The translations under genes were made by a program, and so were the position numbers. Source: Eubacteriales bacterium (GTDB lineage Bacteria > Bacillota > Clostridia > Lachnospirales > Lachnospiraceae). Taken from it: a DNA stretch of 64,000 nt. The notes below the pieces were generated by a model. The model saw nothing but the letters and a program-made list of their open reading frames with translations. It was not told where the DNA came from and did no database searches. The stretch is taken from positions 60,078 through 124,077 of the forward strand of contig JAUNPS010000008.1 in assembly GCA_030536575.1 (NCBI GenBank), written 5' to 3'. Below, piece by piece: positions 5,293-57,373 of the stretch. Position 1 is the stretch's first letter; each line of letters starts with the position of its first letter.

Positions 5293-6309
5293 ATGAGCCG
5301 CTTATTAGAAGTTGAAAATCTGAATGTGTCCTTTCACACCTATGCCGGTGATGTAAAGGCTGTGCGGGGCATCACCTTCGGCGTGGAAAAAGGCGAGACC
5401 CTTGCGATGGTCGGTGAATCCGGCTGCGGAAAGTCGGTGACGGCCAAGGCGCTGATGCGTCTGTTTGACCGTACTTCCGGGGAAATTTTACCCGGTTCCC
5501 AGATTCATTTTGACGGGAAGGATGTGATGGCCCTGAGCAAAAAGGAGCTGCATTCCTTCCGCGGGTCGGAGATCGGCATGATTTTCCAGGACCCGATGAC
5601 TTCGCTGGATCCTACGATGGCCATTGGAAAACAGGTCGGCGAGACGCTGATGATCCACGAAGGCATTTCCATGAAAGAAGCCGTAAAGAAATCCGTTGAC
5701 CTGCTGCGCATGGTGGAGATCCCCACGCCGGAAGAGCGTGTGAAGGCTTATCCCCATCAGCTTTCCGGAGGTATGCGCCAGCGTGTGGTAATCGCGACGG
5801 CCCTGGCCTGTAATCCGAAGCTTCTGATTGCCGACGAGCCCACCACGGCCCTGGATGTGACCATTCAGGCTCAGGTACTGGATCTTCTCCGGGATCTGAA
5901 GGAACGCCTTGGGACGGCGATTATTCTCGTAACCCATGACCTGGGAATCGTGGCCGATTTCGCAGACCGGATTCAGGTGATGTATGCGGGCGTGATCGTG
6001 GAAGAAGGCACGAAACAGGAAATTTTCAAGTCCTGCGAGCACCCCTACACCTGGGCGCTGCTTCGCTCCATTCCCCAGGAAGGGGCCTCGAAAAAGCAGC
6101 TTTATTCCCTGAAAGGGACGCCGCCTGACCTGCTGCTTCCCCTGGAGGGCTGCCCCTTCGCGTCCCGCTGCGAATACTGCATGCCGGTCTGCCGGAAGAA
6201 AGCGCCGGACTTTACGCAGAAGAGCGATACGCACCGCCTGGCCTGCTGGCTCCAGCATCCCAAGGCGCCGAAGGTAAAAAGACCGGTTCAGATCGGAGGT
6301 GGAAAGTAA
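5293..6309 (+). CDS. oppD: Oligopeptide ABC transporter ATP-binding protein
   Basis: A 338-residue ATPase. The Walker A loop GESGCGKS lies at residues 41-48, the signature [20 protein letters not shown] near 155-175, Walker [13 protein letters not shown] just after, and the switch histidine in LVTHDLG. The C-terminal oligo_HPY domain ends in a cysteine-rich segment ([21 protein letters not shown]) of the type that binds a [4Fe-4S] cluster in DppD-like proteins. AGGAGGTG precedes the start. Its last base overlaps the first base of oppF (A of TAATG), so the two subunits are translationally coupled and probably made in equal amounts. Confidence 0.95.
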
Positions 6310-8208: not shown

Positions 8209-8607
8209 CTATTCTTCCACGCCCTCGCTCTCGAAAAATTGTGCAACTGTCATACATTTTGGATGTTCCATTTCAAGACTTAAAAAATCCTTATCTCCCG
8301 TGAGAATAATATCCACGTCAGACACAATCGCCGCATTTAAGATCGGCTGGTCTTTTGCGTCGCGTATCAGCTTTTCCGCATGGTCCACCGCTGGAATAAG
8401 CTCATAGGACATTTCTGCCAGCAGCACTTCCGCGTCCGGCAGGAACTTCGGGGCTTTTCGTTTCAGAATATCCCGCAGCTCCATAATATTGCGGTCACAT
8501 AGGACAATTTCGTGATTGTCCGCGATATACAGAAGCGCCCGCGCCGGTTTGGAGCGCGGAAAGACCAATGCGGAGAACAGGATATTTGTATCAACCAATA
8601 TCCGCAC
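8209..8607 (-). CDS. PIN-domain toxin (VapC-like ribonuclease)
   Basis: A 132-residue PIN-domain protein of the 'putative toxin-antitoxin system toxin component, PIN family' type. These are Mg2+-dependent ribonucleases. The acidic active site is complete: Asp6 in ILVDTNIL, Glu43 in IMELRDIL, Asp86 in KDQPILNAA, and Asp105/Asp107 in LTGDKDFLSL. It starts one base after the stop of the antitoxin gene, the usual toxin-antitoxin layout with the antitoxin first. No transmembrane or signal sequence. It should be active unless bound by the AbrB partner; its RNA target cannot be read from sequence. Confidence 0.9.
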   Translation of the reverse strand: MRILVDTNILFSALVFPRSKPARALLYIADNHEIVLCDRNIMELRDILKRKAPKFLPDAEVLLAEMSYELIPAVDHAEKLIRDAKDQPILNAAIVSDVDIILTGDKDFLSLEMEHPKCMTVAQFFESEGVEE

Positions 8608-9035: not shown

Positions 9036-9467
9036 TTAATCATTCTTCATCACATCATAAATCCGGATTTCCACGCCGCCCTTTCTTCCCTGCACCTCCG
9101 ACCGGAACTGCCCCCGGCACAGATACTCCCCAAGCACCCGGCTGTCCGTAATAAACCGCGGACACGCATGCAGATACGCATCCTCCCGATTCGCCTTGGT
9201 AAAATACCCGTTATTCTCTACGAAAAGATAACACTCCGTCCCCTCGCTGTCCTTCCCGCGGAACATATATTTCGCACACATATGCCGGCTTCCGGCCACA
9301 TTTTCCACCTGGACATCCACCGCCCCCGGTAAAATCTCCCCGGTAAACAGCTCAGACTCCACCTTTCCCGTAAAAGGAATAAACGTCACCGCTCCATAAG
9401 GCCCTTCCATATTCGAAACCTGTGCGTCATCCGTAAAAATCTGAAACGTCATAATCGGTTTTTCCAT
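9036..9467 (-). CDS. DUF3237-family protein
   Basis: A 143-residue small beta-rich protein matching the DUF3237 pattern: an early TF-IFTDDAQV strand, GPYGAVTFIPFTG, VAGSRHMCAKYMFRGKDSEG in the middle, and FVENNGYF. No signal peptide, so cytoplasmic. The biochemical function of this family is not established. A strong AGGAGG RBS (reverse complement of tcctcc at about 9475) precedes it. It lies downstream of the esterase in the same direction and is probably the last gene of the minus-strand utilisation locus, so it may act on the imported substrate or its aglycone; that is inference from position only. Confidence 0.75.
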   Translation of the reverse strand: MEKPIMTFQIFTDDAQVSNMEGPYGAVTFIPFTGKVESELFTGEILPGAVDVQVENVAGSRHMCAKYMFRGKDSEGTECYLFVENNGYFTKANREDAYLHACPRFITDSRVLGEYLCRGQFRSEVQGRKGGVEIRIYDVMKND

Positions 9468-45780: not shown

Positions 45781-47724
45781 CTATTTCACCGTCACCTTAC
45801 AGGTCACTTTCTTCTTTCCGGAAGTAATGGTGATCACAGTCGATCCCTTCTTCTTCGCCGTAATCTTACCCTTACTGCTCACCGTCGCTACCTTCGTATT
45901 CGAAGACTTATAAGTTACCTTATCCGTACTGTTCTTCGGCGTCACAGTTACTTTCAGCTGCACGCTCTTACCCTTCTTCAGGCTTACGGACTTCTTATTC
46001 ACCGCAATCTTCGTTGTCGGCGCTTTTACGGTAACTTTTACTTTCGCAGTCTTCCCGCTGTCCAGAGCAACGGTAATCGTCGTCGTTCCCGGAGCCTTCG
46101 CGGTAATTTTGCCCTTGCTGCTTACCGTTGCTACGGAAGGTTTGCTGGAGGTAAAGCTTTCGATGGAATCGCCTTTCCCGTAGGTAATCTTCAGCGTCGC
46201 GCTCTTGCCTACGTTCAGGGACAGGCTCTTCTTATTCGACTTAATGGTCGCTTTCAGCTTCGCGATCGATACGGATTCCTTTTCCCCGCATACGGAACAG
46301 GTACGCTCTTTCACGCCTTCTTCTGCTACCGTTGCCGCCTGCACGGTCTTATATGCACCAAAGCTATGGCCTTTTGCCGGGATCGCCGTAGCGTCTTTCT
46401 TTACTCCGCATACGCTGCACTCTTCATGCTGACGTCCTTCATCCGTACAGGTCGCCGCGCGGTCTACGATCACCTGATAAGTATGCGCGCCCGTTGCCGG
46501 GATTTCTTTAACGTTCTTCTTCGCATGGCATACGCTGCATTCGGTGTACTGGCTGCCTGCGGTGCTGCAGGTCGCTGCCGTGCCGGTAACAGGCGTCGCC
46601 GACCAGGTATGCGTCGTCCCGCATTTCTGCGAATACCGGTCTACACGGAATGTAAGAGGCCCAACGACAAGTGCATTTTGCGCATCATAAACCTCATAAT
46701 ACTTGATCCCCAGGTAATAAGGCACCCCGGCAGTCAGATTCGCGCGGATAACAAGCTCATTCCCTTTGCTCTCTCCTACCGGCCCGTAAAACCAGCTGGT
46801 GGCCTGTTCAATTCCATCAACATCCCACAACGTTGCATACCCTTCTGTCGATGCAGTCATCGCAGCCGAATGGAATTCATAAGTGCCCGAATCTTCCGGA
46901 ACAAATTTATAGTAGAAATTTTTCGACGCTTTATCAATATTTGCCGTAATCAGCGTTTCCATAGCAATGTCTGTCGCATTGCTCTTCCAGTCCACATACG
47001 TAACCGGGACGGTTACCGACGCAACTTCCATCCTGCCGTCATCTTCATAGTCATCCTCATACCAGCAGATAATTTTCGCCTGATAGGTTCCGGGCGTATA
47101 ATCCCCGTATACACTCTGGCCGTTTGCATCCAGAATCTGACCGGACAGATAATAGCTGTATCCGTCAATATCCGTCAGATAATCCCCGTTCCAGTAACTC
47201 TCGATACGGATTTTTTTCTTTACGGTACTTCCATCCGCAAGCGTTACCGTTACCTCACACTCCGGACGCCCATCCTTTTCTGAAAAAGTTCCGGTAACTG
47301 CTGTCGCCGTCATTCCGGTTATATCTTTCTTTTCCGCAATAGTAAAAGAAACGTTTTCCACGGCATTCGAACTAATCCGGATATAATAAACCTCTTCGCC
47401 GTTCATCTTGTAAATTCTGCTGCCGTCCTGATTGGAAGAACCATATACCGAATTCCTGTCTTTCTTATAAACACTGATCGATGCATTCCGGCTCGTACTG
47501 GCAATCACATATCTCCCTTCTGCCGGCGCTTCAAATGCAAAATACTGATATCCTCCAACCGTAGAGATCGCCGCAGTATTCGTCCCAAGCACCGCCGTTC
47601 TTCCAGCCGCAAGCTCTGTCACCGGAAGGCTTCTGGGAACCAAGGTATCCGCTTCTGACGCGCTTACCGGAACCGCTATGGCCATCATTGCCATCATCAG
47701 TCCAATTGCTAACTTTCTTTTCAT
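45781..47724 (-). CDS. Secreted bacterial Ig-like (Big_2) surface protein, paralog 3
   Basis: A 647-residue exported protein, third of a tandem paralog set. Signal peptide to about VSASEA; residues 40-130 form a beta-rich pre-peptidase-like domain (GGYQYFAFEAPAEGRYVIAS); then one Ig-like module, a second beta-rich module (about 290-370), a cysteine segment with repeated ATC...HEECSVCGVKK units, and two Big_2 domains at the C-terminus (SVATVSSKGKITAKAPGTTT and VATVSSKGKITAKKKGSTVI). No sortase signal or repeats for wall binding are visible, so attachment is unclear. Start follows AGGAGGAGAG. Confidence 0.82.
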   Translation of the reverse strand: MKRKLAIGLMMAMMAIAVPVSASEADTLVPRSLPVTELAAGRTAVLGTNTAAISTVGGYQYFAFEAPAEGRYVIASTSRNASISVYKKDRNSVYGSSNQDGSRIYKMNGEEVYYIRISSNAVENVSFTIAEKKDITGMTATAVTGTFSEKDGRPECEVTVTLADGSTVKKKIRIESYWNGDYLTDIDGYSYYLSGQILDANGQSVYGDYTPGTYQAKIICWYEDDYEDDGRMEVASVTVPVTYVDWKSNATDIAMETLITANIDKASKNFYYKFVPEDSGTYEFHSAAMTASTEGYATLWDVDGIEQATSWFYGPVGESKGNELVIRANLTAGVPYYLGIKYYEVYDAQNALVVGPLTFRVDRYSQKCGTTHTWSATPVTGTAATCSTAGSQYTECSVCHAKKNVKEIPATGAHTYQVIVDRAATCTDEGRQHEECSVCGVKKDATAIPAKGHSFGAYKTVQAATVAEEGVKERTCSVCGEKESVSIAKLKATIKSNKKSLSLNVGKSATLKITYGKGDSIESFTSSKPSVATVSSKGKITAKAPGTTTITVALDSGKTAKVKVTVKAPTTKIAVNKKSVSLKKGKSVQLKVTVTPKNSTDKVTYKSSNTKVATVSSKGKITAKKKGSTVITITSGKKKVTCKVTVK

Positions 47725-47739: not shown

Positions 47740-50100
47740 TTATTTTACCGTCACCTTACAGGTCACCTTTTTGGTTCCCGATGTAATCGTGATGGTCGCC
47801 GTACCAGCCGCTTTCGCCGTGATCTTGCCCTTGCTGCTCACTGTCGCAACCTTCGCGTTCGAGGTCTTATAAGTCAGCTTATCCTGGCTGTCCTTCGGCG
47901 TCACAGTTACCTTAAGCTGAAGCGTCTTTCCTTTCTTCAGGGTTACGCTCTTCTTATTGACCGCTACTTTCGTTGTCGCAATCTTTTTCACGGTAACTTT
48001 GATCTTTGTGGTCTTCCCGCTCTTTAAGGTAACAAGAATATTTGCGGTTCCGGCTTTTCTTCCGGTAATCTTTCCTTTGCTGTTTACCGTCGCTACGGAA
48101 GGTTTGCTGGACTTATAGCTCTTCACGGCATCGCCCTTGCCAACGGTGATCTTCGGCGCAGCCACGCTCTTTCCAACATATACGGTCAGGCTGCTCTTCG
48201 CTGCCTTGATCGTAGCCGTCAGTTTTTTAATCGAAGCGGTTTCCTTCACACCGCATACAGAACAGGTGCGTACTTTGGTTCCCTCTGCCAGTACGGTAGC
48301 CTCTTTGGTCGTCTTATATGCGCCATAGGTATGTTCGCCGGTGGCCGGAATCACAGTTGCAGCTTTTTTCAGTCCGCATACGCTGCACTCTTTATGCTGG
48401 CTTCCCTCGTCTACGCAGGTCGCGGCTTTGTCCACAACCGTCTTCCAGGTATGGAAAATACCGCATGTTTCCGTATCAAGGTCAACGCGGAACGTAACCG
48501 TTCCCTTGGAGAATGCGCTGTCATGTCTCAGAACCAGATAATAAGGTACTCCGCCGGTCAGTTTCCGCTCGATCGAGAACTGGGAGAACTGGCTGCCATA
48601 TCCGCTGCTCAGCCATTTTCCATCCGCGCTGTAAAGAACCGCTCTCAGGCTTTCTGCTTTAGAGGAAGCGGATACCCCATGGAATACATAGGTTCCGGTT
48701 TCTTCCGGGATAAATTTGTAGAAGTAATCCTTTTCCGAAGTCTCCAGTTTTGCCTTTACATTTTCGTTTGCAGCGATTTCCGGAACTTCCGCTTCCATTC
48801 CGCGCCAATCCACGCACTGAACCGGAATACGGACGCTCTTTCCTTCGCAGGTCAGCTCTGCAATATAAGAACCCGCCTCATAGACCCCATAAGAAGCAGC
48901 TTTGCCATCTGCCGTCAGCATTGTCCAGTAAACATCATAGCTGGAATCCATAGCATTTCCATTTTCATTCAGATGAATCTGCTGTGTCTTTCCATTTGAC
49001 AGGGTCAGCTCCAGAACCGTTCCTTCAAAGGACAGGCCTTCCTGGCTGGAGAATGTGGTATCAGCAGGGTTCGTCACCACTTTCATATCAATGACTGCCA
49101 CATACTGTAATTCAATTCTGGCTTCCTGGCCTTCACACCGGAATGCTGCAAAATACGTTCCAGGCACAAACGTATCCTCATAATAATACACATAATTTCC
49201 ATCCGCGGTCAGCAGATTGTACGAAACGCTCCTGTTTGAATTGACTGCGTTTCCGTCACGGTTCAGAGTAATCTGCTGGGTTGTCCCGTTTGATAAGGAC
49301 AGTTCCAGAACGGTTCCCTCAAAGGACGGTCTCTTATTGCTGGAAAATGTCGTATCCGCAGGATTTGCCGCGACTTTCATACCGGTTACCGTTACATACT
49401 GCAGTTCAATATTTACCGTTACATCTTCACAGGTAAACTCTGCAATATAGGTTCCCGGTACATAATCGTAATCCACATAATTTCCATTCAGATCCTTCAT
49501 ACCGTTGTAAGAAAGATATCTGTCAGAATCAACGGCATTTCCATATCTGTCCAACTGAATCTGTTCCGTGCTGCCGTCGTCAAACGTCAGTTCCAGAACC
49601 GTTCCTTCAAAATTCGGGTTCTCCGTGGGAGTAAAGGTCGGATCTGTCGGATTTGACAGAACCTTCATACTGGATAAGGCCGGAGCTACTTCTATCGTGA
49701 ACGGAATCGTCCCCGTATTCTCGTCATAATATTTAACTCCTAAATAGTAGGTTTCTCCGGCATACATCTTTTTGGTAATCTTAAAATTTAAATTCCCATT
49801 TCCATCGTCGTCGCTCTCTACTACATATCCATCTGCATCATAGAGATACGCCTGGGGGTCTCCCCCAGAAGGAAGCGTCGAATAAATCGTATACACGCCG
49901 CTCACGGACGGTTTCAGGGTAAAATAACTGTATCCACCTTCTTCTGTAATGACTGCCATATTTTGGCCGATCACTGCAAGGTTTCCCTCTGCCGCTTCGA
50001 TTACTTCCTGTCCTTCGGCTGCAAACCCGACCATCCCGCATACGGAAAACGATGCTGCCATCATCGCCGCGGCCAGCCAAACACCAAACTTTCTTTTCAT
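47740..50100 (-). CDS. Secreted Big_2 surface protein, paralog 2 (with triplicated module)
   Basis: A 786-residue paralog. After a signal peptide (to about VGFAAEG) and the N-terminal beta domain, residues about 140-420 contain three consecutive copies of an about 90-residue Ig-like module, each starting MKVxxNPxDxTF and holding FEGTVLELxxxxGxTxQI. The other two paralogs have one such module. The second beta domain, the CSVCG segment and two C-terminal Big_2 domains follow as in its neighbours. It lies 18 bp after paralog 1 and 15 bp before paralog 3. Function unknown; the build is that of an adhesin or surface-layer-associated protein. Confidence 0.82.
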   Translation of the reverse strand: MKRKFGVWLAAAMMAASFSVCGMVGFAAEGQEVIEAAEGNLAVIGQNMAVITEEGGYSYFTLKPSVSGVYTIYSTLPSGGDPQAYLYDADGYVVESDDDGNGNLNFKITKKMYAGETYYLGVKYYDENTGTIPFTIEVAPALSSMKVLSNPTDPTFTPTENPNFEGTVLELTFDDGSTEQIQLDRYGNAVDSDRYLSYNGMKDLNGNYVDYDYVPGTYIAEFTCEDVTVNIELQYVTVTGMKVAANPADTTFSSNKRPSFEGTVLELSLSNGTTQQITLNRDGNAVNSNRSVSYNLLTADGNYVYYYEDTFVPGTYFAAFRCEGQEARIELQYVAVIDMKVVTNPADTTFSSQEGLSFEGTVLELTLSNGKTQQIHLNENGNAMDSSYDVYWTMLTADGKAASYGVYEAGSYIAELTCEGKSVRIPVQCVDWRGMEAEVPEIAANENVKAKLETSEKDYFYKFIPEETGTYVFHGVSASSKAESLRAVLYSADGKWLSSGYGSQFSQFSIERKLTGGVPYYLVLRHDSAFSKGTVTFRVDLDTETCGIFHTWKTVVDKAATCVDEGSQHKECSVCGLKKAATVIPATGEHTYGAYKTTKEATVLAEGTKVRTCSVCGVKETASIKKLTATIKAAKSSLTVYVGKSVAAPKITVGKGDAVKSYKSSKPSVATVNSKGKITGRKAGTANILVTLKSGKTTKIKVTVKKIATTKVAVNKKSVTLKKGKTLQLKVTVTPKDSQDKLTYKTSNAKVATVSSKGKITAKAAGTATITITSGTKKVTCKVTVK

Positions 50101-50118: not shown

Positions 50119-51960
50119 CTATTTTACAGTCACCTTACAGGTTGCTTTCTTGCTGCCTGAGGTAATCGTAATGGTTGCTGTTCCGGCGCCCTTTGCGGTA
50201 ATCTTGCCTTTGCTGCTCACCGTCGCAACTTTCTTATTTGAAGTCTTGTAAGTCACTTTATCCTGGCTGTTCTTCGGGGTCAGGGTAACTTTTAACTGGA
50301 GGGTTTTCCCTTTCTTCAGGGTTACGGTCTTCTTATTTACGCTTACCTTCGTGGTAGCGACCTTCTTTACCGTCACTTTGATCGTCACGGTCTTGCCGCT
50401 CTTTAAGGTAACAACGATATTTGCAGTTCCTGCTTTCTTTCCGGTGATCTTGCCCTTGCTGGTAACAGCCGCCACGGAAGGTTTGCTGGATTTGTAGCTC
50501 TTAATCGCGTCGCCTGTGCCGAAGGTGATCTTCGGTGCGGATACGCTCTTTCCAACTTCCAGAGTCAGGCTGCTCTTCGCTGCCTTTGCGGTCGCTTTCA
50601 GTTTTGCAACAGAGGCTGTTTCTTTTTCACCGCATACGGAACAGGTACGTTCTTTGACGCCCTCTGCCAGTACGGTAGCGGCTTTCGTAACTTTGTATTC
50701 GCCGAAGCTGTGGTGTCCGATTGCCGGGATTTCTGTCTCGCTTCTCTTGGCCTTGCAGACGGTACACTCTTCATGCTTGCTCCCTGCTTCCAGACAGGAC
50801 GCTTCTTTATCCACAACTTCTGTCCACTCATGGTAAATGCCGCACTGCTGGGAATAGCGGTCTACACGGAACGTCATGCTTCCGGCCGCCTCTTTGGTAC
50901 TGGCCTGAACCACCAGATAATAGGTCGTTCCCGCTTTCAATTTTACGTTAAATCCAAAATTACCGTCTTCAACGAATTCGTCCTCTGCAAGACATCTACG
51001 CTCTGCTGTATACAAAACAGCACGGCCGCTTACATCCGGCTGTACAACCGTAGACTGGAACCGGTAAATACCAGTATCCGCCGGCGTAAACTTATAGTAG
51101 TAATTTTTCTGTTTAGGCTGTGCTTTTACATCAACCGTTTTATTTTCCTCTAAAGTAACCCCGGTATTCGTATTTAACGCGATTTCTGTGGTCGCCTGTT
51201 CCTTCCAATCCGTAATCTGAATCGGAAGCTGTACCGTCACCTCATCTCCGTCAACCGTATTTCTGCAGTAAAACTCTGCAATATAGCTTCCCGGCTCATC
51301 GTAATAGCTGGCAACCTCGCCGTCTGCCGTGAGAATACGCCGTGATACCTCATAGCGAGATTCTTCTACTCCTTCCGTTAAACCATAGCCGATTTCGTCC
51401 AGTTCGATCTGAACGGTTGTCCCGTTCTCCAGGGTCAGTTCCACTTCCATCCCGTCATAGGACATTTCATATGCGGAGAATGTCGTTTTCTCAGGATTTT
51501 TTACAATCTTTATCGCCGTAGCCTTCGGTTTCTTCGTAATGTCGAAGGTAATCGTCCGGCTCGCCGCTGCATAATCCTCATATCCGACTCTTAAATAATA
51601 AACTCCCCCTGCTTCTAAGGCTGTGAAAATATAAAAACCGTCTCCCTGATCAAAAGCAATCTCGTCACCGTAAGAATTGTAAAGCGTCACCTGCGGAACG
51701 CCAAGCGCGGCCGAGGAAATCCGGTATTCGCCGTCAACCGACGGAACAAACAGGAAATACTGTTCTCTCCCTCCTGCCGGAATCGTCGCCGTATTCGTCC
51801 CTACAACCGCAGCATTTCCTCCTACCATGGAAGCCACGGTGGTATTTCTGGAAACCGCTTCCTCTGCTGCCATAACGCTCACACCCGGCGCTGTTCCGAT
51901 CACTGCCAGCGTCAGCGTCCCAGCCAGAAACTTCTTCCATGCCATTTGTTTCTTCTTCAT
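50119..51960 (-). CDS. Secreted Big_2 surface protein, paralog 1 (first gene of operon)
   Basis: A 613-residue paralog and first gene of the three-gene operon. Start at 51960 follows GAAGGAGAG; the longer frame to 51996 begins upstream of that RBS. Signal peptide MKKKQMAWKKFLAGTLTLAV to about VMAAEEA; N-terminal beta domain (GGREQYFLFVPSVDGEYRIS); one Ig-like module (IKIVKNPEKTTFSAYEMSYD); a second beta domain; the cysteine segment (CLEAGSKHEECTVCKAKRS and ERTCSVCGEK) that could bind zinc; and two Big_2 domains. Its promoter has ten G residues in the spacer, a possible phase switch. Confidence 0.82.
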   Translation of the reverse strand: MKKKQMAWKKFLAGTLTLAVIGTAPGVSVMAAEEAVSRNTTVASMVGGNAAVVGTNTATIPAGGREQYFLFVPSVDGEYRISSAALGVPQVTLYNSYGDEIAFDQGDGFYIFTALEAGGVYYLRVGYEDYAAASRTITFDITKKPKATAIKIVKNPEKTTFSAYEMSYDGMEVELTLENGTTVQIELDEIGYGLTEGVEESRYEVSRRILTADGEVASYYDEPGSYIAEFYCRNTVDGDEVTVQLPIQITDWKEQATTEIALNTNTGVTLEENKTVDVKAQPKQKNYYYKFTPADTGIYRFQSTVVQPDVSGRAVLYTAERRCLAEDEFVEDGNFGFNVKLKAGTTYYLVVQASTKEAAGSMTFRVDRYSQQCGIYHEWTEVVDKEASCLEAGSKHEECTVCKAKRSETEIPAIGHHSFGEYKVTKAATVLAEGVKERTCSVCGEKETASVAKLKATAKAAKSSLTLEVGKSVSAPKITFGTGDAIKSYKSSKPSVAAVTSKGKITGKKAGTANIVVTLKSGKTVTIKVTVKKVATTKVSVNKKTVTLKKGKTLQLKVTLTPKNSQDKVTYKTSNKKVATVSSKGKITAKGAGTATITITSGSKKATCKVTVK

Positions 51961-52046
51961 AAAACTCTCCTTCCCGCACGGTGTACCCCGGCTCATCTCC
52001 CGTCAGCCGCCGGTACATACCTCTGCATTTTTTATGTTTCCTATCC

Positions 52047-52077
52047 ATTATACCCCCCCCCCTAATCTTTCCGTCAA
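52047..52077 (-). promoter_or_regulatory. Promoter with G10 homopolymer spacer (candidate phase-variable switch)
   Basis: On the minus strand TTGACG (52072-52077) and a perfect TATAAT (52047-52052) are separated by 19 bp, of which the ten next to the -10 box are all G. Slippage in the G-run would change the spacer; loss of two G gives the optimal 17 bp. The transcript would start about 80 nt before the first surface-protein gene, with no other gene between. Confidence 0.75.
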
Positions 52078-52191
52078 TAGAATCGGGCAATAAATATTCA
52101 CAAATTTTTCACTTTTTTATCACATTTCCATCAAAATTCTTCTATTATGAACAAAAGAAGCGCCCGTTTCCGGCCGCTCCCTTTGTCATTA

Positions 52192-54753
52192 TCACAAATT
52201 CTCATTCCGCAGCGTCTCCACCACATTCATCCCCCTAAGCTTCCTCTGCGCATATCCCATCGTCACCCCCACAATTCCAAACACACCCAAAACCGCAATC
52301 CCCACACTCCCCCACGGCACCGTAAAACCAAACGCAAAATTCCCCTGCAGCACCCGGTAAATCCCATACATCACCGCCAAACTCACCGGCGCCGCAATCA
52401 CCAAAGCCTTCACCCCATAAAAAAGCCCCTCTGCATAAACCATCTTCCGCACACCGCCAGGCGTCATCCCATAAGACACAAACATTGCAAACTCCTTCCT
52501 CCGCAGCGCCATCCCCGTCGAAATCGTATTCATAATATTCGCCAGCGACACCAACGAAATCAGAACCGTAAACCCATACAGAAACACCGAAACCACCATC
52601 AGCCGACTCTGCATATTCCGCCTGCCTGCCCACACATCATTCGTATAGATCTCCATTTTCGAATAATCCTGGCAAATCCGTTCCGCCTCGCGCTCAAGCC
52701 CCTGAATATCCTCCGCCGTATACTGCGCCTCCCCGGAAACAAACGCCTCCTCCTCATCCAGCCCGGCCTTCGCAAGCACCTTCTCTATGCCCGCCGCATT
52801 CGTCACAAAATAAACCGGCTCCGCACTCTCCTGATACTGCATCATAAACGGCGCCCGCACACTCGTAACCGCCGCAGCCGCTATCGGAACACGTTTCTCC
52901 ACATCATACTTCCAAAACGAAAGCTCCTGCCCCGGCGTTACATCCAAAAGCTTCAGATCGGTAAAATTGTGCCCCTCCTTCAGCGTAATGTTGTTTACCA
53001 GAATCAGCGGCGTCTCCGCCTGTTCCAGCTCCTCTTTCGAAAGCCCCGCCTCCTTCAGATACGCCTCATACGCCGCATCATCCAATACCGCGATCCGTGT
53101 CCATACCGTAATATCTTCCTCCTGTCTCCCCATGGAGTCCCAAAATCCCTCTGTCATTTCTTCCTTCCCCAGCAAAAGATACCCAATATCATAGTAATTC
53201 ACCAAAATTCTTGTATCCGCACTCTCCACTTCCAGAAGTTCCCGTTCAAACGCCGGGTCAGCCTCCTGCCCATCCCGATACCACCAGATCACATAATCAT
53301 AAGATAACGGCTCCTGAGCCATCTCATAAGCCTTGCGCACATACAGAGAAAAGGAAGACGCCGCCAGAAACAGCACCACACTAATCACAAGCGAATAAAC
53401 TGTCACCCTATACCGGTGTTTGCTCCTCTTCAGATTCTTTAGTCCAAGCTCCGCTTCAAATCCGAACAACTTCCGGACCATTGAAGGCGTCCGCACATTC
53501 CGCGGCCGGATTTTAATGTCCTGATTCTGTCGGATTGCGTCGATAGGGGCGATTTTCGAAGCCCGTCTTGCCGGAAACCACGCCGAAACAGCCAGCGTAA
53601 TGACCGCAAGCGCCACAACCGCCGCGATTCCTCCCGGCACGATCACCATATGCATTTCAGCCGTTGTCTGAAATACATTCTGAGCCGCGCTCCCAATCAC
53701 CTGAAACGTAATCCAAATCCCCAAAATACCGCACACAATCCCAATCGGAATCGCAATGCACCCGATAATCCCAGCCTCGACAAACACCGAAGCCCGCTTC
53801 TGCTGCCTGGTCGCCCCCACACTGGAAAGCATCCCCAGCATCCGGCTCCGTTCCGAAAGCGAAATCCCGAACGCATTGTGAATCAGGGACACCGACGCAA
53901 TCAGAATAATCGCGCTGATAATCCCAACCACCCCATATACGGTAATCAAAATGCCCCGATCGTAGGTCACACCCATATAAAAAAGCAGCGAACTATTACA
54001 TTCCACTTCCACATTGCCCGCGCTCTGGGCCAGCTCCTCCGCCGCCGCGTACATCTTCCGGCTCGGTTTTTGGTAGGTCACATAAATCTGATACGCTTTG
54101 TCCGGCTCCACTTCCTCTTCCGCCAGGGCAGAATAGGCATGGTAGCACGATCCGGAATATTCCTGCGTGGTAAACGTCCCGACAATCGTATACGTCCGTT
54201 CCCCTTTGACCGTAAAGTCTTCCTCGCTCCAGAAATTATAGAGGTTGCCTTCAATGGTTTCCCCGTCTACTTCCACCGTCCGCACGCCATATTCCAGCGT
54301 CACCACATCGCCGACCTGCCACGCGCCGCCCGTCTTCTCCTGAAATGCCTGATCAATGGCCAGCTCCCCGCTGTTTTCCGGCATCCGCCCTTCCTTCAGC
54401 TCCGCCGTAAGCAGCTCCGGCGTCGAATGCGCCGTCAGATACAGATAGGGCTTTCTGGAGCCTTCCAGTTCTTCCGGCTTTACAAACCCCAGTTGTTCGC
54501 ATACGTCCGCCGTACCTATGCCCTCCGCGTCCGTAATCTTCGCCGTCTCGGACCCTGCCACATCTTTAAACTGCATATGCCATTTTCCGGCATAAACCTT
54601 GACGCTTTCCTGCATCATAGACAGAAACGAGCTGCCGATGATAAAAACCGCCGTCAGCATTGCCACCGAAATGACCGACCCGATCACCGTAACCAGCGTC
54701 CGGCTTTTGTTCTGTTTCATGTACCGCCACGTTAGACTTCGGATAAGCTTCAT
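52192..54753 (-). CDS. ABC transporter permease, FtsX/MacB type
   Basis: An 853-residue membrane protein with the layout of peptide/lipid exporters: a first membrane segment (residues about 18-42, TLVTVIGSVISVAMLTAVFI), a large extracytoplasmic domain, a first FtsX block of three segments with HNAFGISLSERSRMLGMLSS near residue 290, another single segment after the FGFEAELGLKNLKRSKHRYR linker, a second extracytoplasmic domain, and a second FtsX block near the end (NTISTGMALRRKEFAMFVSYGM). It overlaps the ATPase gene by 4 bp. It should act with that ATPase, possibly in resistance to cell-envelope peptides, as judged from the linked two-component system. Confidence 0.9.
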   Translation of the reverse strand: MKLIRSLTWRYMKQNKSRTLVTVIGSVISVAMLTAVFIIGSSFLSMMQESVKVYAGKWHMQFKDVAGSETAKITDAEGIGTADVCEQLGFVKPEELEGSRKPYLYLTAHSTPELLTAELKEGRMPENSGELAIDQAFQEKTGGAWQVGDVVTLEYGVRTVEVDGETIEGNLYNFWSEEDFTVKGERTYTIVGTFTTQEYSGSCYHAYSALAEEEVEPDKAYQIYVTYQKPSRKMYAAAEELAQSAGNVEVECNSSLLFYMGVTYDRGILITVYGVVGIISAIILIASVSLIHNAFGISLSERSRMLGMLSSVGATRQQKRASVFVEAGIIGCIAIPIGIVCGILGIWITFQVIGSAAQNVFQTTAEMHMVIVPGGIAAVVALAVITLAVSAWFPARRASKIAPIDAIRQNQDIKIRPRNVRTPSMVRKLFGFEAELGLKNLKRSKHRYRVTVYSLVISVVLFLAASSFSLYVRKAYEMAQEPLSYDYVIWWYRDGQEADPAFERELLEVESADTRILVNYYDIGYLLLGKEEMTEGFWDSMGRQEEDITVWTRIAVLDDAAYEAYLKEAGLSKEELEQAETPLILVNNITLKEGHNFTDLKLLDVTPGQELSFWKYDVEKRVPIAAAAVTSVRAPFMMQYQESAEPVYFVTNAAGIEKVLAKAGLDEEEAFVSGEAQYTAEDIQGLEREAERICQDYSKMEIYTNDVWAGRRNMQSRLMVVSVFLYGFTVLISLVSLANIMNTISTGMALRRKEFAMFVSYGMTPGGVRKMVYAEGLFYGVKALVIAAPVSLAVMYGIYRVLQGNFAFGFTVPWGSVGIAVLGVFGIVGVTMGYAQRKLRGMNVVETLRNENL

Positions 54754-55433
54754 CTGCGCATCACCTCGTCTCTCGCGATTTTTCCGTCCTGGATGGACAG
54801 AATGCGGTCGGCCTGGAGGGCAATGTTTTCGTCGTGGGTAATGAGCACCAGAGTCTGGTTCAGTTCCCGGTGAAATTGCTTCAAAAGACTGATAATTTCG
54901 GCACTGTTAAAGCTGTCCAGATTCCCGGTCGGCTCATCTGCCAAAACAATGGCCGGATTATTCATCAGCGCCCTGCCGATCGAAACCCGCTGCTGCTGCC
55001 CGCCGGACAGTTGGTTCGGCAGATGGTTCAGCCGCTTTTCCAGCCCCAGCCGCTTCACAAGAAAATCAAAATGCTGCTCATTCACTTTCCGGCCATCCAG
55101 AAGCAGGGGCAATGTCAGATTTTCCCTCACATTCAGCACCGGAATCAGGTTATAAAACTGGTAGATCAGGCCGATCTGGCGGCGGCGGAAAATGGCCAGC
55201 GCCGTCTCATTCATTGCATAAATATCCGTCTGATCCACCCAGACCTTCCCGGATGTCGGCGTATCCACTCCCCCTAAAATGTGCAGGAGCGTGGACTTTC
55301 CCGAACCGGAAGGCCCGATGATCGCCACAAATTCTCCTTTTTCTACGGAAAAGGACACATCGTCCAGGGCTCTTACTGCGGCGTTTCCTTTTCCATATAT
55401 TTTTGACAGGTGTTCAACTCTTAAAATTTCCAT
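54750..55433 (-). CDS. ABC transporter ATP-binding protein, MacB/LolD type
   Basis: A 227-residue ATPase. Start at 55433 follows GGGAGG. Walker A GPSGSGKSTLLHILGG (about 37-52), Q-loop region LIYQFYNLIPVLNVRENLTL, signature LSGGQQQRVSIGRALMNNP, Walker B IVLADEPTGNLDSFNSAEII and switch LVLITHDENIA are all intact. This is the class that powers FtsX-type permeases; the partner is encoded next. The kinase gene ends 85 bp upstream. Confidence 0.95.
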   Translation of the reverse strand: MEILRVEHLSKIYGKGNAAVRALDDVSFSVEKGEFVAIIGPSGSGKSTLLHILGGVDTPTSGKVWVDQTDIYAMNETALAIFRRRQIGLIYQFYNLIPVLNVRENLTLPLLLDGRKVNEQHFDFLVKRLGLEKRLNHLPNQLSGGQQQRVSIGRALMNNPAIVLADEPTGNLDSFNSAEIISLLKQFHRELNQTLVLITHDENIALQADRILSIQDGKIARDEVMRR

Positions 55434-55518
55434 GGAAAACCTCCCTTTTGTTTTCTTTTCTTTAGAATACCTGTCGAACATGACAGCTTCGTGACAGGAT
55501 TTCTTACAATTTTGTCAC

Positions 55519-56520
55519 TCAGACTGTCTGATTGTAGAATGTCACGGTGAAGGCAGTTCCCGCGCCCGCTTCGCTCTCCACGCTCACATCCGCTTTCTGT
55601 CCATTCAGAATTGTTTTCGCCATGGCAAGGCCGATGCCGACGCTGTCCGGCCCCGCATTTTTTCCTTTATAAAACCGTTCGAAAATGTGCGGTAAATCTT
55701 CTTTGGAAATCCCTTCCCCGTCGTCTGAAATCACAAGCCTTGTGTAAAGCGGCGTATTTGTACACGTAATGCGTACTGTTCCGCCCTCTCCCGTATGTTC
55801 CACGCAATTTTTCACAATATTCAATATCGCTTCCCCCGTCCAGTTCCGATCCGTCTCAATCCGCAGTTCTTCCTGACAATGAATCTCCAGCGTCTGGCCC
55901 TTTAACTCCGCCGGAATCCGTAAGGGTTCTATGACCTGATTCAGCCATTTTTTTACCGGAACCTGCTCTTTTTTGAATTGGACGGCCTGGGCGTCGATTT
56001 TGGACATTTTTAATAAAGAAGAAACGAGCCATTCAATGCGTTTTAGCTGATTCAGGATATTGTTCAAAAAGGTTTCCCGCTTTTCCTCCGGCAGGTCTGG
56101 GCTGCTTAACAGGTCAGTCATGACGAACATGGAGGTCAGCGGGGTTTTCAGTTGATGGGAAATGTTGGACATGGTGTCTGCTAAGTATTGCTTGTCTTTT
56201 TTCAGAAGGGCGGACTGCTCCGAAAGCGTCAGCGTTACTTTATAAATGTCATTTTTCAGGATGCTCAGTTCACCTTCCCGGTTGTCCCGGATATCCATGC
56301 AGGGCAGGCCGGTATAAACGCTGGCCAGATATTCCGACAAATCCGCAATGTCCTGATAGCGTTTCCTGGTAAACAGGTAAAAGCTGCCGGTCAGAAGCAG
56401 AAAAAAGGCCGCCCCTGCGATTCCTGCCGCAGGCGCAATTCTCCATAAAACGCAGACGCCAGCCACGCCTATCACGCCCGCGAGCGTCATAAATTTCCAA
56501 AATTCTTTATTTTTTATCAT
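55519..56520 (-). CDS. Sensor histidine kinase with two closely spaced membrane segments
   Basis: A 333-residue kinase. Two membrane segments at about residues 10-29 and 31-48 are separated by only a few residues, so there is almost no external sensor; this resembles intramembrane-sensing kinases. The phosphoacceptor His is in MSNISHQLKTPLTSMFVMTD, and NIVKNCVEH, DDGEGISKED and GIGLAMAKTI make the ATP-binding domain. ATG at 56520 is preferred to 56529 because GGGTGG lies just upstream; the start overlaps the regulator's end by 14 bp. It probably detects envelope stress together with the adjacent transporter. Confidence 0.9.
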   Translation of the reverse strand: MIKNKEFWKFMTLAGVIGVAGVCVLWRIAPAAGIAGAAFFLLLTGSFYLFTRKRYQDIADLSEYLASVYTGLPCMDIRDNREGELSILKNDIYKVTLTLSEQSALLKKDKQYLADTMSNISHQLKTPLTSMFVMTDLLSSPDLPEEKRETFLNNILNQLKRIEWLVSSLLKMSKIDAQAVQFKKEQVPVKKWLNQVIEPLRIPAELKGQTLEIHCQEELRIETDRNWTGEAILNIVKNCVEHTGEGGTVRITCTNTPLYTRLVISDDGEGISKEDLPHIFERFYKGKNAGPDSVGIGLAMAKTILNGQKADVSVESEAGAGTAFTVTFYNQTV

Positions 56521-57196
56521 GTGCACCACCCATTCGATAGCCCAGGCCTCTCACCGTTTCGATGACGGAAGACGTCTGGCCTTCCGGTTCCAGTTTTTCT
56601 CGCAGGCGTTTGATGTAGACGGACAGGGTATTGTCGTTGATAAAGCTGCCGTCCACGTCCCAGATGCCTTCCAGAAGCTGGTTCCTGCTCAGAACCTGGC
56701 CCGGATGGCTGGCGAAAACCAGGAGCAGGCGGTATTCCATGGCGGTCAGGAAAATTTCCTGGCTGCCGCGGAAGACCTTGGCTTGTTTGACATTGATGGT
56801 AATGTCGCCGATGGTCAGCAGGTCGCTTCCGCCGTCTTTCCGGTAATGGCGCAGGGCGGATTTCATGCGGCTTAACAGTTCGCGGAAGCGGAAGGGTTTG
56901 GTGATGTAGTCGTCTGCGCCCATGTCCAGGCCGCGCACGACGTTGACTTCGTCGTCGCAGGCGGTGAGGAAGAGGACGGGGGCGGCTTGTTTGGCTTTGA
57001 TATATTCGCAGAGTTCGTAGCCGCTGCCGTCGGGGAGGGTCAGATCCAGGAGGTAGATGTCAAAGGTTTGGCGGGCCAGGGTTTCCAGGGATTCCTGGAG
57101 GTTTTGGCAGATGCGGACGTCGTAGCCTTCGGCCAGGAGGGAGTATTGGAGGCCTTCGGCTATGGTGCGGTCATCTTCGGCAAGGAATACTTTCAT
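56507..57196 (-). CDS. OmpR-family response regulator
   Basis: A 229-residue regulator. Start at 57196 follows AAGGAG; the open frame far upstream is not coding. The receiver has Glu7-Asp8-Asp9, phosphoacceptor Asp51 in LLDLTLPDGSGY and Lys in DYITKPFRFREL. The winged-helix domain (about 130-225) has ILLTAMEYRLLLVF-like (EIFLTAMEYRLLLVFASHPG) and NTLSVYIKRLREKLEPEGQT with ETVRGLGYRM at the end. It is first in a regulator-kinase-ATPase-permease operon and probably activates the ABC genes downstream. Confidence 0.93.
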   Translation of the reverse strand: MKVFLAEDDRTIAEGLQYSLLAEGYDVRICQNLQESLETLARQTFDIYLLDLTLPDGSGYELCEYIKAKQAAPVLFLTACDDEVNVVRGLDMGADDYITKPFRFRELLSRMKSALRHYRKDGGSDLLTIGDITINVKQAKVFRGSQEIFLTAMEYRLLLVFASHPGQVLSRNQLLEGIWDVDGSFINDNTLSVYIKRLREKLEPEGQTSSVIETVRGLGYRMGGAHDKK

Positions 57197-57373
57197 GGGG
57201 TTCTCCTTATAATATGTTTGATTTCTTTTATTATATTTCCTGGGGCGGAAAGCTGCAAGGTTTATCTGGCGGCGCGCGGGCGGGTATTCTGGTAGAGGAG
57301 GCGCTTTCTGCGCATGACGGGCTGGACCGGCTGTTCGGCGCAAATTTGCGGCCGGACATTTTTGAAAAAGGGG

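Follow-up and report, generated by a model that had tools for sequence, protein, structure and literature searches.

A run of ten G in the spacer of a sigma-70-type promoter probably acts as a random expression switch of the porA kind, setting the output of three tandem genes for putative Big_2 surface proteins; judging from the sequence and from similar promoters elsewhere, we put the probability of this reading at roughly 0.75. The promoter lies on the minus strand of the window (the whole 64-kb stretch of DNA analyzed here). By direct reading, it consists of a -35 box TTGACG (52072..52077), matching the consensus at five of six positions; a 19-nt spacer made up of GAAAGATTA and G10 (52053..52071); and a perfect -10 box TATAAT (52047..52052). 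The first-pass annotation had reported these boxes, their distance of 19 bp and the G10 between them, and its description proved exact. The homopolymer itself (52053..52062, minus strand) adjoins the -10 box. With ten G in a 19-nt spacer, the promoter has the arrangement of porA-type systems, in which a homopolymer long enough to be prone to slippage separates the two boxes. Both this direct reading and the evidence from the wider promoter class presented below mark the G10 as the proposed slippage tract.

The distance from the -10 box to the first surface gene's ATG (51960) is an ordinary 86 nt. From there, three genes with Big_2 domains run in a row on the same strand, matching the surface-protein gene row described before: surface protein 1 (613 aa; 50119..51960, minus strand); surface protein 2 (786 aa; 47740..50100, minus strand), 18 nt behind gene 1; and surface protein 3 (647 aa; 45781..47724, minus strand), 15 nt behind gene 2. 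All three proteins carry Big_2 Ig-like domains at their end, in surface protein 1 behind a signal peptide that is typical by our home-made test. Signal peptide and Big_2 domains together identify the product under the promoter's control as a predicted surface product. The upstream neighbor, also on the minus strand, is a MacB/FtsX-type ABC permease (52192..54753), followed further upstream on the same strand by an ABC ATPase (54750-55481), a histidine kinase (55519-56529) and a response regulator (56507-57205); these four genes are outside the proposed switch.

In the proposed mechanism, replication slippage at the G10 tract would add or remove G and shift the spacer in 1-nt steps, such that G8 would give 17 nt, G9 18, G10 19 and G11 20. 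Output would be strong near a spacer of 17 and weak at 19-20, the assembled G10 allele would represent a weak or intermediate state, and daughter cells would make differing amounts of the Big_2 surface proteins. The model further supposes that these changes are reversible, that the three genes are co-transcribed and that the resulting variation benefits the cell.

Enrichment across the family is a stronger argument against chance than the rarity of the tract at its own locus. We searched 397 family genomes for the pattern TTGA-N(4-14)-G8-N(0-5)-TA(A/T)AAT and obtained 52 matches in 39 genomes, present in 36 of the 334 genera sampled, against two matches for the reversed-pattern control. The same pattern with C8 in place of G8 matched three times (none reversed), and with so few matches in 397 genomes, poly-C spacers were rejected as a second class. 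A stricter pattern, TTGAC-N(0-30)-G6-TATAAT, which shares the 397 genomes with the TTGA/G8 and TTGA/C8 searches and is not independent of them, returned 27 matches in 21 genomes and none reversed; 26 of the 27 have spacers of 14-20. Run lengths among these matches (G6 4, G7 4, G8 4, G9 7, G10 7, G11 1) peak at 9-10, without the decay expected of chance runs: 15 of the 27 reach at least G9, an outcome with P 1e-7 even when each further G is granted a chance of 0.5. Twenty-five of the 27 sequences are distinct, three being one repeated sequence. Genome G237 carries near-identical TTGACA...G7TATAAT promoters at three loci (L166, L167 and L168), two of them at contig ends; by sequence, the triplet resembles a mobile or otherwise repeated element.

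Such promoters extend beyond the family. Among 391 genomes drawn from the class, the pattern TTGA-N(0-30)-G8-TA(A/T)AAT matched 11 times in eight genomes (the window's own included) and three times in reverse, and seven of the eight genomes belong to other families. Spacers of about 6-36 were allowed (31 gap values); all 11 matches fell at 14-20. In IMG/VR viral contigs, TTGAC-N(5-13)-G8-TATAAT occurred once, a count that does not serve as a matched control.

To characterize the family's poly-G promoters, we fetched the surroundings of all 52 matches. Forty-nine sites lie outside reading frames of at least 150 aa, and the other three lie inside an opposite-strand frame of at least 150 aa. Run lengths are G8 at 11 sites, G9 at 20, G10 at 16 and G11 at five, all poly-G promoter lengths in this study being read from assembled sequence, where G runs can be miscounted (PMC9187656, accessible text). 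Spacers are mostly 16-20, with 19 the commonest (15/52). Ordinary promoters within the fetched loci, defined as TTGAC plus TA(A/T)AAT without G7, peak at a spacer of 17 (18/53), whereas for the 43 poly-G sites with TTGAC the commonest spacer is 19 (13 sites), and 38 of the 43 fall within 16-20 (Mann-Whitney p 0.003 for the 41 ordinary and 38 poly-G sites within 15-21). The two peaks fit the picture expected if many poly-G promoters were caught one to three G from the optimum, and they agree with the first-pass prediction that spacing would be weak at 19-20 and optimal at 17 bp.

Where related genes share a poly-G promoter, the length of the tract changes. In genus g33, the promoter is kept before the same ABC-ATPase gene in all three species (G034, G375 and G798; loci L118, L120 and L193, about 75% DNA identity), and the orthologous promoters combine G11 with a spacer of 20, G9 with 19 and G10 with 20. 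Genome G104 has two copies of a surface-type gene (L122 and L165, 91% identical over 1309 nt) that differ from -35 to -10 only in the tract, with G9+TG (spacer 20) in one and G7 (spacer 16) in the other. In G130, two lipoprotein-like paralogues that share 66% identity over 722 nt carry G10 with a spacer of 20 and G9 with a spacer of 18. All of these comparisons are across genes or species rather than within a clone; a slippage switch under selection should leave behind just such a tract, kept in place but changing in length.

The genes behind poly-G promoters often encode exported products. Of the 44 callable downstream genes, 26 carry an export signal. The share is lower both among the remaining genes of the loci (48 of 252; odds ratio 6.1, p 1.5e-7) and among genes that follow ordinary promoters (seven of 29; p 0.004); both comparisons rest on home-made heuristics for signal peptides and gene calling. 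At L145, whose protein begins like a MatE transporter, the signal-peptide call seems to be a false positive, and L106 and L126 look like missed signals; the counts keep all three as called. Eight of the 52 sites were dropped for want of a callable downstream gene, two of which (L114 and L123) have signal-peptide-like starts. The 29 ordinary-promoter controls include four (L103, L108, L128 and L137) whose downstream gene also follows a poly-G site and two with G6 (L169 and L171). A recognized export signal is missing from 18 of the 44 callable genes. A Pfam tally of 43 of the 44 proteins (L126 was left out for its doubtful frame) shows, among the first 25 of the 35 families listed, four ABC ATPases, three each of BspA-type leucine-rich repeats, GGDEF, Big_2 and choline-binding repeats, and singles including solute-binding proteins and a surface lipoprotein family. 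From these predictions, the class is biased towards the cell surface, yet not confined there.

Two features of the class are left unexplained by slippage alone: the run adjoins the -10 box in 40 of the 52 sites, and it is often preceded by C (...ACCGGGG...; at -1 in 20/41 and at -2 in 24/41). Both would suit a fixed element that performs no switching, namely a site for a regulator of G-rich DNA or a rigid spacer that sets how strong the promoter is. However, run length and spacing vary between orthologues and paralogues, the window's promoter has no preceding C, and the downstream genes do not make up one regulon-like class; we therefore consider a fixed element unlikely, though the best of the alternatives to a slippage switch.

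Counting both strands, the 64-kb window holds 49 G runs of length 5 and six of length 6; lengths 7-9 are absent, and a single run reaches 10. For a G10 within a 19-nt spacer, local composition gives a rough probability of ~9e-5. In the window's own genome (4.81 Mb, 100 contigs, either strand), this tract is the sole place where G7 directly precedes TANNNT and the only promoter-type G tract found, among 14 places with runs of at least G9 (overlapping matches merged). G8 words, however, are not over-represented in the window (three overlapping matches versus a dinucleotide-shuffle mean of 5.1), and because shuffles predict G8 words there, we do not rely on a composition-only argument that the G10 is special.

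Searches for the locus itself returned little. A DNA search of 61 relatives yielded the window itself and eight short matches of 24-66 nt, with no same- or near-species copy of the promoter among them. Neither of two same-genus genomes has a copy (G001 gave no match and G002 one 42-nt match outside the tract), and the best permease match in these two is 35% identical. A scan of genome contigs found two weak Big_2 relatives, both in MAGs labeled 'uncultured Lachnospiraceae bacterium', and a copy of the promoter was absent from the viral contigs and plasmids searched. At the protein level, 99 of 250 family genomes gave matches, mostly along the C-terminal Big_2 region, which is widespread, and the 250 yielded no clear orthologue of the three-gene operon. 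Four upstream regions of related surface genes were retrieved, of which three were readable, the fourth (L186) ending at a contig edge; the readable ones (L185 in the own genome, L187 and L188 in G002) have no run of G6 or longer.

The three tract-free relatives and the unremarkable count of G8 words would both be expected if the promoter were real and its G10 a stable run that arose by chance, the similar promoters elsewhere being coincidental. Such coincidence is hard to reconcile with controls of two and three against 52 in the same genomes, with run lengths that peak at 9-10 and with a tract kept across the three g33 species, and we judge it quite improbable.

The sequence around the boxes bears on whether they are used. 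If transcription begins about 7 nt downstream of the -10 box, the 5' leader would span 51961..52040 (minus strand); this segment folds better than shuffles (z -3.2), and no Rfam family reaches threshold in it. A riboswitch or known leader RNA was rejected, as the sole Rfam match is sub-threshold (15.9 bits versus 36) and lies over a hairpin. On the other side of the promoter, 3' of the permease gene, is a terminator-like hairpin with a U-rich 3' arm (52151..52186, minus strand; -24 kcal/mol, z -7.4). This hairpin, which is absent from the consensus-scan listing, can by its predicted fold separate the surface genes from upstream transcription; with it between permease and tract, the surface genes probably need a promoter of their own. 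The consensus promoter scan is limited to spacers of 16-18 nt and for that reason did not list the TTGACG/TATAAT site. That the boxes are unused, with transcription starting elsewhere or reading through from the permease gene, is the least probable of the alternatives. In its favor are the spacer of 19 nt, which departs from the optimum, and the absence of the site from the standard scan; against it are the strong hairpin between permease and tract and the lack of any further minus-strand promoter-like site among the scan's listings for 51900-52400.

G tracts also occur within genes of this genome, where G8-G13 runs lie in long reading frames that look glycan-type when their translations are read by eye. 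Contig C49 has G9, G9 and G10 within 3 kb (L172:5346-5354, 6090-6098 and 8259-8268), all inside glycan-type frames, and the open frame changes at the G10, as it would in an OFF phase, in what reads by eye as a fucosyltransferase-like gene. Contig C57 has G9, G8, G9 and G8 (L173:3794, 4992, 7134 and 9447) inside a run of surface-sugar-type genes, with a change of open frame at the G8 at 9447. In others of the genome's glycan-type tracts, the open frame continues through the tract. A G13 in a glycosyltransferase-like frame (by eye) on contig C13 lies close to a masked or gapped stretch. As G tracts sit in glycan-type frames and some coincide with a frame change, the lineage appears to employ such tracts for frame switching as well. 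On contig C32, a G10 on the plus strand (L174:1823-1832; C10 on the minus strand) lies close to the signal peptide of what appears to be a secreted protein and is a possible coding switch.

Promoter G-tract slippage is best documented in Gram-negative pathogens. The Bordetella fimbrial promoters, which the first-pass annotation had named as a parallel, likewise have a homopolymer close to a promoter that serves surface structures; theirs is a C tract that reportedly lies between an activator site and the -10 box, unlike the family studied here, where poly-C spacers are nearly absent (three matches in 397 genomes). In porA of Neisseria meningitidis, the amount of transcript correlates with how many G the spacer contains (PMC3899988, accessible text). 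The promoter described here shares with porA a homopolymeric G tract in the -35/-10 spacer and a surface-protein product; unlike that gene of a Gram-negative pathogen, it belongs to a Clostridia-type genome, its switching is predicted from sequence, and its class places the G run against the -10 box in most sites (40/52) and extends over 36 of 334 genera sampled. A meningococcal fetA construct with a 17-bp spacer gave high expression (accessible part of PMC4577077). In the hifA/hifB promoter of Haemophilus influenzae, the number of TA repeats alters the -10/-35 spacing (PMC3899988, same excerpts), but here, unlike in the poly-G class, the repeat is a dinucleotide and the genes are divergent. 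Bifidobacterium breve UCC2003 offers a gut commensal with G-tract replication slippage, although it is an Actinobacterium; in the available portions of the report, the tracts studied lie inside pilin genes, and G tracts in promoter spacers are only mentioned (PMC9187656). Homopolymer tracts within coding genes are covered by the accessible parts of PMC2831843 and of PMC6437147, the latter placing a Campylobacter poly-G tract in cgtB.

The first-pass annotation knew of no described case for this family, and among the open-licence papers that our literature searches returned, none appears to describe promoters with a poly-G spacer in Clostridia or, within them, Lachnospiraceae. Slippage is not treated in the accessible text of PMC12413058, and slippage terms do not occur in that of PMC11892184, which concerns invertons. 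The kind of mechanism is thus known, while its place and breadth appear unreported in the open-licence papers searched. According to the available part of PMC11892184, Clostridia-like gut strains have a median of three invertible switches per genome, versus 8.5 in Bacteroidota; because these switches are so few there, another source of switching in such strains would be of interest.

The earlier reading of this site as a phase-variable promoter has gained support from recurrence far above controls, from the bias towards exported products and from the length variation between orthologues and paralogues, and the promoter stays a candidate. On a broader scale, we find it fairly probable that poly-G spacer promoters are widespread, repeatedly evolved random expression switches in the family and in some other families of the class, placed before exported proteins, lipoproteins, transporters and signaling genes, and that they form, beside the glycan-gene G tracts, a slippage 'phasome' of gut-type Clostridia. 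Since 39 of 397 genomes carry a strict match, cultured family members should offer loci whose tract lengths can be counted in existing reads. If this broader reading is true, one assembled genome shows only one allele of such genes, and a large group of gut-type anaerobes would diversify its surface by promoter G-tract slippage.
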